64,000 bases of DNA, taken from positions 6,200,001-6,264,000 of the forward strand of contig NZ_CP107785.1 in assembly GCF_036345915.1 (NCBI RefSeq), in the 5' to 3' direction. Below the pieces are notes generated by a model. That model searched no databases, was not told the DNA's origin, and saw only the letters and a program-made list of their open reading frames with translations. Every line of letters starts with the position of its first letter. The first letter of the stretch is position 1. This DNA comes from Nocardia sp. NBC_00565 (GTDB taxonomy: Bacteria; Actinomycetota; Actinomycetes; Mycobacteriales; Mycobacteriaceae). Shown here piece by piece: positions 50,155 to 52,354 of this stretch. Made by a program: the position numbers and the translations under genes.

Positions 50155-50781
50155 TCACGGTTCCAGACCGTGGCGCAGATATCCGGTCAGCAGAATGACG
50201 ATCTCGTCCTCGACTCGTCGTGGATCGATCGCGGTCGGCGCCGTGAGGAGTCGGTGCACCAGCGATTCGATGGTGGCCACCACGATTCGGGCGCTGATAT
50301 CACTGTCGACAACCCGCACTTCGGGGTGAGTTGCGAGCAGACGCGCGGTCATCTCGACCGCAGTTCGCTCCAACTCATGTAGTCGCGCGAGGAATTCCGG
50401 AGCACGCGGAGCCTGCTCGAAGAGCACCCGATGCAGTCCCGGATCATCGCGATGGTTATCGATGGTCGCACGCACGAACATTCGCACGACCTCATCGAGC
50501 CGCTGCGGCAAACCGTCCGACAGACGCTGACCCAATAGTCGGGTGCCGGAATCCACATGCGCGTCCATCAGTGCGCGCAGGATCGCGTCCTTGTTCGGGA
50601 AGTACTGATACAGCGAGCCGATTGACAGGCCCGCATGCTCGGCGATGCGGTTGGTCGTGCCCGCCGCATAGCCGTATTCGGCGAAAATGTGAGCCGCCGC
50701 GTCCAGGATCCGCTGTCTGGTCTCCGCGGCGCGCGGCTGTTTCGGCTGCTTGCGGGCCCGATACCGGTTCGGTGGCGCGAT
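50155..50781 (-). CDS. TetR regulator with apparent ATC start
   Basis: A 208-residue TetR protein: HTH LDAAAHIFAEYGYAAGTTNR, then IGSLYQYFPNKDAIL (residues 27-67), and a normal C-terminal ligand domain. Between an in-frame TGA (at about 50810) and the HTH there is no ATG, GTG or TTG. ATC at 50779-50781 stands 5 bases after a perfect GGGGAGG ribosome binding site and gives the typical length. Either AUC is used as start, or a former ATG has been mutated and the gene is crippled; the next ATG (50568) would remove the whole HTH. Divergent from the SRPBCC gene. Confidence 0.72.
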   Translation of the reverse strand: MAPPNRYRARKQPKQPRAAETRQRILDAAAHIFAEYGYAAGTTNRIAEHAGLSIGSLYQYFPNKDAILRALMDAHVDSGTRLLGQRLSDGLPQRLDEVVRMFVRATIDNHRDDPGLHRVLFEQAPRAPEFLARLHELERTAVEMTARLLATHPEVRVVDSDISARIVVATIESLVHRLLTAPTAIDPRRVEDEIVILLTGYLRHGLEP

Positions 50782-50833
50782 GGTCGCCTCCCCTCGAAAA
50801 GCGAGTAGTCAACGATGTTCCCACTCCGCAGAA

Positions 50834-50847
50834 TTAGGTGACCCTAA
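50834..50847. promoter_or_regulatory. Candidate TetR operator before the SRPBCC operon
   Basis: TTAGG and CCTAA flank four bases, a short inverted repeat in the 84-base gap between the TetR gene and the divergent SRPBCC gene. Confidence 0.4.
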
Positions 50848-50865: not shown

Positions 50866-51303
50866 ATGCGGACAATCCACGTCGCGACCACACTGCCCAC
50901 CAGCGCCGACCGAGCCTGGCAGGCCATGCAGTCACCAGCGACCTTTCGCTACGTGTGCCGGGGCTTGATCGGCATTCCGGCGCTGACCGGCCGGACCGAA
51001 CCGCTGCGGGTCGGCGAACGCGGTACGGCCTGGTTGTTCGCCTTCCACGTCATACCCGCCTACCGGCACACCATCGAAGTCATCGAGGTAAATGAGAAAA
51101 CCAAGACCATCCGCACAAACGAGCACGGTGGCATCATCACTACTTGGAACCACACATTGCACACCGAACTAATCGATGAGAAAACCTGCCATTACAGCGA
51201 CACCGTCGAGATCGACGCCGGTCCCGCCACCGCCGCCGTTGCGGCACTCGCGATCAGGATCTACCGATACCGCCAGCGGCGCTGGCACCAGCTCGTCCAA
51301 TAA
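50866..51303 (+). CDS. SRPBCC family protein
   Basis: A 145-residue START/SRPBCC-fold protein. The N-terminus HVATTLPTSADRAWQAMQSP and the GTAWLFAFHVIPAYRHTIEV strands fit the helix-grip fold that binds hydrophobic ligands or catalyses cyclisation of polyketides. The ligand cannot be predicted. ATG 50866 follows AGGAG. The HadAB-like gene follows after 16 bases, so lipid-related chemistry is plausible. Confidence 0.8.
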   Translation: MRTIHVATTLPTSADRAWQAMQSPATFRYVCRGLIGIPALTGRTEPLRVGERGTAWLFAFHVIPAYRHTIEVIEVNEKTKTIRTNEHGGIITTWNHTLHTELIDEKTCHYSDTVEIDAGPATAAVAALAIRIYRYRQRRWHQLVQ

Positions 51304-51319
51304 ACGAGAGGAATCGATC

Positions 51320-52354
51320 TTGGAGGTCATCGCGAGCCTAAGTGGCCCAGTCGATCCGGTAGCCCATCTACGATCGCTCGTCGGCAAGCACTATCGGGTG
51401 AACGACACCTACGAGGTCGGCCGGGAGAAGATTCGGGAATACGCCCGTGCCGTACAGGATTTCCATCCGGTCTATTGGGACGAGGATTCGGCCGCGGAGT
51501 ACGGCTACCCGACTTTGCTCGCCCCGCCGACATTCACATCGCTACTCGCCACCACGGTCCAGAAGGCCCTCAGCGAAATCCTCATCGGCATCAACCTGAC
51601 GACCACGGTGCAGACCGATCAGGTCTTGGACTTCCATCAACCCGCACTGGTCGGCGACCAGTTCATCAGCAATATCTCGCTGCAGTCGTTCCGCCAGGCC
51701 TTCGGCGGCGACCTGATCGTCATCGAGAACGCGGTGACGAATCAGCGCGAGGAGAGCGTGGTCACCTCGCAAACCAGCCTGATCGCGCGGTCGGAGCAGG
51801 CGCCGAACACCGAGGAGATCGCCGCCAAGATGGCGGGGATCATGCGCCAGGACCTGACCCCACCCGCCAAGTTCGCACTCCACGCGCTGCATTTACGCAA
51901 GCCGGAATCCGCACCGCCGCAACATCTTCGAGCACGGAAATTCGACTCGGTGACGGTCGGCGCGGAACTGCCGCCGCGAACCGTCGGCCTTACCGTCGGC
52001 GATCTGGTCAACTACGCCGGTGTTTCGGGCGATCCGAATCCGATCCACTGGCATCCAGCGGCGGCCGAACTCGTCGGTCTGGATCGCACGGTGGTCGCGC
52101 ACGGCATGCTGACCATGGCCCTGGGCGCGGGCTTCGTCACCTCCTGGCTCGACGACCCGGGCGCGCTGCGCCAGTTCCGCGCCCGCATGACGAGCCCGGT
52201 CTACGTCGACGCGGACGGCCACAGCGTGATCGAATACGGCGGCAAGATCAAGTCCCTCGACCCCGAACACAACACCGCGATAGTCGCTCTCACCGCCACC
52301 CACGGCGGGCGCAAGATCTTCGGCCGCGCCACCGCCACGGTCCAGTTGTCCTGA
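51320..52354 (+). CDS. Fused HadA/HadB-type (3R)-hydroxyacyl dehydratase
   Basis: A 344-residue protein with two hotdog domains. Residues 1-160 form a MaoC-like N-terminal half with YWDEDSAAEYGYPTLLAPPTF. Residues 195-344 form the catalytic half with the hydratase motif YAGVSGDPNPIHWHPAAAELVGL and GMLTMAL. This is the fusion of HadA- and HadB-like subunits that dehydrates 3-hydroxyacyl-ACP or -CoA. TTG 51320 is chosen because GAGAGGA lies 8 bases upstream. Confidence 0.88.
   Translation: MEVIASLSGPVDPVAHLRSLVGKHYRVNDTYEVGREKIREYARAVQDFHPVYWDEDSAAEYGYPTLLAPPTFTSLLATTVQKALSEILIGINLTTTVQTDQVLDFHQPALVGDQFISNISLQSFRQAFGGDLIVIENAVTNQREESVVTSQTSLIARSEQAPNTEEIAAKMAGIMRQDLTPPAKFALHALHLRKPESAPPQHLRARKFDSVTVGAELPPRTVGLTVGDLVNYAGVSGDPNPIHWHPAAAELVGLDRTVVAHGMLTMALGAGFVTSWLDDPGALRQFRARMTSPVYVDADGHSVIEYGGKIKSLDPEHNTAIVALTATHGGRKIFGRATATVQLS

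Follow-up and report, generated by a model that had tools for sequence, protein, structure and literature searches.

A TetR-family regulator gene of Nocardia and mycobacteria that very probably starts at AUC

AUC is permitted as a start codon by the bacterial code table, and infC of E. coli, the gene for initiation factor IF3, starts at AUU. The gene described here resembles infC in that a near-cognate AUH start sits on a gene whose product presumably must be dosed. It differs in that its codon is AUC rather than AUU, and in its product: IF3 itself checks start codons, whereas the protein considered here is a predicted DNA-binding regulator and is not known to act in initiation.

In general terms AUC is already in print as a rare bacterial start, being named among such codons in the available text of two papers (PMC9094748, PMC9845219). 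Reporter values come from two further papers, as far as their available text goes. In Mycobacterium smegmatis, ATC served as a presumed negative control yet gave low, above-background activity with a Shine-Dalgarno sequence, and ATC persisted at 0.2% after selection of the reporter, compared with 20.5% for ATG, 22.2% for GTG, 28.7% for TTG and 9.8% for ATT (PMC4633059). In Bacillus subtilis, an rny-lacZ fusion with an engineered AUC start had much lower expression, not zero (PMC10303841). Our gene would share leadered initiation with a Shine-Dalgarno with the mycobacterial ATT/ATC reporter, and with rny-lacZ a start that strongly lowers expression without bringing it to nothing; unlike the synthetic reporter with its presumed negative control and the made mutation of the fusion, its AUC is natural and conserved. 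Among the matches listed, and within the open-licence literature covered, we saw no individual bacterial gene described as having an AUC start that is both natural and conserved. With its AUC retained in many species, a natural regulator gene would let one test why evolution holds on to an inefficient start codon, and how the dose of a repressor is set by weak initiation.

The DNA analysed, referred to here as the window, is a 64,000-nucleotide stretch of the Nocardia sp. NBC_00565 chromosome, and all positions are given within it. From comparison of orthologous sequences, we put at roughly 0.88 the joint probability that an intact TetR-family regulator is translated from AUC by way of a well-placed Shine-Dalgarno, presumably with the ordinary initiator tRNA, and that AUC has been retained at this one codon across many mycobacterial species and some Nocardia.

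The TetR gene and its start region

The start region is made up of the following features.

50155..50781, minus strand: TetR/AcrR-family regulator, 208 codons when read from ATC (translation; TetR_N and TetR_C_15 domains)
50157-50155, minus strand: TGA stop codon of the TetR gene (sequence)
50779..50781, minus strand: ATC, very probable start codon (in 64 close orthologues: ATC 32, ATG 24, GTG 8, other 0)
50787..50793, minus strand: Shine-Dalgarno GGGGAGG, 5 nt upstream of ATC (sequence)
50797..50811, minus strand: conserved leader element TGACTACTCGCTTTT (TACTCG[CT] within 60 nt upstream in orthologues)
50809..50811, minus strand: TGA in frame upstream of ATC (sequence)

By both domain tests the gene encodes a TetR/AcrR family regulator, with Pfam TetR_N (PF00440) at residues 25-71 (64.1 bits, cut-off 24) and TetR_C_15 (PF17918) at residues 95-202 (81.3 bits, cut-off 26.8). 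Against the ScbR family autoregulator-binding factor model (NF041196) it scores 68.8 bits, below the cut-off of 150, and so falls outside that family as the model defines it. The protein is a putative operator-binding repressor, a role suggested by the operator-like palindrome and leader element beside its gene. Its best relative of solved structure, 2oer (E 2e-20), is uninformative on the start codon, and the plasmid-borne relatives (4 records, every one below 60% identity) were of no help.

On the minus strand, the sequence after the upstream TGA (50811-50809) reads CTA CTC GCT TTT CGA GGG GAG GCG ACC ATC GCG CCA CCG. The window has no ATG, GTG or TTG in the TetR frame from this TGA to codon 25, and close to the ATC (-9 to +12) it is free of them in every frame; its earliest in-frame standard codon is the ATG at 50568 (residue 72), past the DNA-binding domain. 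The sequence thus bears out the initial annotation, which had noticed that no standard start lies between the upstream TGA and the helix-turn-helix (HTH) and that GGGGAGG points to ATC, giving 208 codons. As a same-genome control, we took 48 TetR loci out of 139 TetR matches in the source genome (9.7 Mb, one contig); among the 40 of the 48 that were alignable (8 were not), the window's gene was the sole locus (1 of 40) in which no standard start follows the in-frame stop ahead of residue 22.

Initiation here would be 30S initiation of the ordinary type at the strong Shine-Dalgarno of the TetR gene, with the normal initiator tRNA reading AUC through a third-base mismatch. With AUC, initiation would be weak and repressor output small, a low dose that may be useful to the cell. 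Because ATC is a weak start in the M. smegmatis reporters, as far as the available text describes them, synthesis of the repressor is probably low, and AUC is probably what keeps it so.

A special initiator tRNA that reads AUC was considered and set aside: the 56 tRNA places read with ARAGORN (30 as loci and 26 in 20 stretches) include no second GAU tRNA, the one tRNA-Ile(GAU) gene of the genome adjoining tRNA-Ala. CAU tRNAs were called six times, in one case (L216) by ARAGORN only. A folded start region was likewise set aside, as it showed no excess stability over shuffles (z 0.15 in the window, z 0.42 in the Nocardia aurea orthologue). Since the leader folds no better than its shuffles, structure lends no support to special control.

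Codon 1 in orthologues and the descent of ATC

Relatives were drawn from named genomes (the scan kept its best 80 of 521, which leaves the list of names incomplete), from the window's genus (98, then 150 genomes), from the family (15 of 401 genomes with a match at 1e-45) and from the mycobacterial genus (60 of 396 with a match at 1e-60). Once copies were removed, 143 distinct loci had a match. Identity of at least 58%, an alignment starting at residue 6 or earlier and the lack of an early gap were found in 74 of them, and 65 of these carry an N-terminal signature (codon 3 encoding P, codon 6 encoding R) that is independent of codon 1. L183, with ATC at the aligned place and ATG at the next codon, was removed by hand, which left 64 close orthologues, the window's gene included. 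Nine close loci without the signature were left out: L174, L176, L181, L182 (aligned codon ACC), L184, L076 (CAC), L082 (ACG), L075 (ACA) and L074 (GTG). In most of the nine an adjacent codon is ATG or GTG. A standard start lies between codons -10 and 12 in 77 of the 79 loci outside the 64.

Codon 1 is ATC in half of the 64 and a standard start in the other half. Species with ATC include N. aurea, Mycobacterium angelicum, szulgai, asiaticum and gordonae, Mycolicibacterium sphagni and vinylchloridicum, and Mycolicibacter heraklionensis and arupensis; the ATG and GTG orthologues include Mycolicibacterium peregrinum, Mycolicibacterium septicum and Nocardia sp. AG03. ATT, ATA, CTG and TTG occur at codon 1 in none of the 64, so that ATC is exchanged only with the standard start codons ATG and GTG. 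Because ATC is the usual isoleucine codon of these genes (240 of 269 inner isoleucine codons in the ATC orthologues and L183, and one of the two other invariant isoleucine columns of the ATC orthologues is also entirely ATC), finding it in place of ATT or ATA says little on its own, and the absence of those two codons at codon 1 is suggestive only.

In a tree from which codon 1 was left out, at least two changes are required to account for ATC, while a single clade of all ATC sequences is not rejected (p-AU 0.106); the ATC sequences are related by descent, and a single origin is compatible with the tree. N. aurea is placed among Nocardia sequences bearing ATG and GTG, and the window's gene groups, on a long branch that makes its placement unsure, with a mycobacterial ATC group of 27. 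The two larger ATC groups, of 27 and 4, have ATC throughout, and over the 32 ATC sequences silent positions have moved: one third base is kept in just 4 of 44 invariant two- or four-fold columns. The comparison supports both the place of the start and its age, and AUC appears to be long established, not the product of a mutation or of a sequencing error.

Why it has lasted can be read in two ways, both of which take AUC as the start. One is that its weakness is unselected, the codon being a relic that works well enough and is kept by chance and shared descent; this concerns the why only and is compatible with an AUC start, and we give it appreciable weight, short of an even chance. Two changes on the tree suffice for it, and other lines bear ATG (24) or GTG (8). 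As the sequences were chosen by their ATC, the fair test is the purity of the tree groups, and here the unbroken ATC of the groups of 27 and 4, held while silent positions changed, speaks against it, as does the count of zero for ATT, ATA, CTG and TTG. The other way is more tentative, and we think it rather unlikely: AUC would be a conserved control element, weak on purpose, for a self-regulated repressor present at very few copies per cell, whose synthesis depends on initiation fidelity, for instance on the level of IF3. The low rate of repressor synthesis might then be under selection, or respond to IF3, and an altered state of the translation machinery would shift transcription of the divergent genes.

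Alternative starts and frames

We turn to readings in which AUC is not the start, or is one only by accident. In the first of them, translation begins upstream, at a TTG, GTG or ATG or else at a non-standard codon, and the isoleucine is an ordinary inner residue. Indeed, 20 of the 32 ATC orthologues have some in-frame ATG, GTG or TTG upstream or before codon 25, and for 72 of 120 listed database relatives the annotation places the start upstream. No such codon, however, lies between the in-frame stop and codon 25 in the window's gene or in 11 other ATC sequences, and the Shine-Dalgarno serves ATC: its match ends 5-7 nt before ATC in 30 of the 32 (the script's rule yielded none for L146 and L140). 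G stands at -10 in all 32 and at -11 in 30 of them, and 29 of 32 have no ATG, GTG or TTG in any frame from -9 to +12.

The leader also lacks the signature of coding sequence. Among the ATC orthologues, the entropy of the columns, averaged for each codon position, comes to 0.34/0.25/1.07 bits over codons 2-17 and flat upstream of codon 1 (1.41/1.49/1.48 bits); the ATG and GTG orthologues give 0.30/0.17/1.12 against 1.26/1.30/1.28 upstream. Columns were anchored at codon 1 and ungapped, so that leader indels add to the upstream blur. Coding periodicity starts directly after codon 1. TACTCGC of the leader element precedes ATC by 25, 26, 27, 28 or 37 nt, so that all three frames occur. From one species to another this conserved element changes its frame with respect to the start, which places the leader outside the protein, and because the distance spans all three frames, no upstream frame is common to the species. 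Nor is codon 1 likely to be an inner valine where it reads GTG, since GTG is used there in 8 of 8 sequences compared with only 400 of 927 inner valines (65 sequences). An upstream start is on these grounds improbable, and AUC is very probably the real start codon of the TetR gene.

Less probable still is a recent ATG-to-ATC mutation, or a base-calling error, that nearly silenced the window's copy and derepressed the divergent genes. The initial annotation had offered two outcomes, a genuine AUC start or such a one-base mutation, and had taken ATG in relatives as a sign against its reading. ATG does stand at codon 1 in 24 of the 64, so that this sign is half borne out, and AUC is a poor start in M. 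smegmatis, as the available text has it (PMC4633059). Since 32 of 64 close orthologues have ATC, 31 of them distinct from the window's and in other genomes before an intact gene, AUC is no private mutation or read error, and the window's gene is itself intact with a full Shine-Dalgarno. Of the two outcomes the genuine start is well supported by the orthologues, and silencing with derepression of the divergent operon is unsupported.

Equally improbable is entry into the TetR frame by frameshift or reinitiation from an overlapping upstream frame, for which the window does offer a GTG-started candidate (start 50824, 110 aa), but the Shine-Dalgarno serves ATC directly. Upstream start, frameshift and reinitiation alike were rejected because the leader element varies in frame, periodicity upstream of codon 1 is flat and standard codons are lacking around the Shine-Dalgarno.

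Database annotation of the relatives is uneven, their N-termini often being set at upstream (72 of 120) or downstream (5 of 120) codons. The 120 listed comprise the 72 annotated from upstream, which have I (70) or V (2) at the place of codon 1, 41 that start at codon 1 and 7 without the motif, five of which begin downstream (P0002, P0086, P0096, P0108 and P0113). P0002, the apparent entry for the window's own protein, has 157 aa (window 50155-50628, minus strand) and starts inside the HTH, at a codon that is CTG in the window. Two proteins are annotated from the ATC codon, so that AUC already appears as a start in some public annotation: P0010 (Mycobacterium sp. IS-836), which matches an ATC genome (locus L038), and P0084, a Nocardia entry that past its first residue agrees with the gene of N. 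aurea (L010, L052).

Leader element, palindrome and divergent genes

Beyond the leader element, the region between the TetR gene and its divergent neighbours holds the following features.

50834..50847, no strand assigned: palindrome TTAGGTGACCCTAA between the divergent genes (sequence; pattern kept in orthologues)
50866..51303, plus strand: divergent small gene, named SRPBCC by the initial annotation (28 of 32 ATC orthologues have a homologue next to the TetR gene)
51302..52354, plus strand, start approximate: fused HadA/HadB dehydratase gene (NCBIfam NF040620, 437.4 bits, cut-off 350)

TACTCG[CT] stands within 60 nt upstream in 32 of 32 ATC, 21 of 24 ATG and 8 of 8 GTG orthologues, and the leader element TGACTACTCGCTTTT is possibly a candidate operator. 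The ATG and GTG orthologues are thus like the window's gene in protein family and, in 29 of 32, in the leader element; they differ in their standard start codon and, for 21 of the 24 with ATG, in having no good copy of the intergenic palindrome. A palindrome with at least 9 of the 11 pattern letters is found in 26 of 32 ATC, 3 of 24 ATG and 6 of 8 GTG orthologues. Only 3 of the 24 with ATG keep it, and in the ATG lines a change of promoter layout may have gone along with that of the start codon. In three ATG orthologues (L060, L062 and L152) neither the leader element nor the divergent neighbour is present, and the TetR gene is thus in another setting there.

The consensus for -10 elements is TANNNT. 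The palindrome at 50834-50847 contains a hexamer of this kind on the strand of the TetR gene, and some relatives have one on both strands, which is what overlapping divergent -10 elements would give. We infer that the palindrome TTAGGTGACCCTAA is likely to be a putative operator, overlapping -10 elements or both.

The conserved partner of the TetR gene is the divergent small gene (28 of 32 ATC orthologues), for which no Pfam or NCBIfam family match was obtained. A HadAB gene beside it occurs, among the compared loci (flanks of 1 to 5 kb), in the window only.

The leader element at 50797-50811, as CTACTCGCTTT, lies 5' of the Shine-Dalgarno also in far relatives (L076, L077, L082, L108 and L109) from the genera Pseudonocardia, Amycolatopsis, Actinomadura and Streptomyces, where its recurrence perhaps marks a candidate operator. 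One of these, L109 of Streptomyces, has no ATG, GTG or TTG between codons -10 and 12, and reads CTG where its near twin L108 has ATG. A TetR relative of another subfamily (L021, genome G093; 44% identity) likewise has no standard start between codons -10 and 12; by eye, it has ATC where its relatives start with ATG or GTG, and it is a possible second case of an ATC start.
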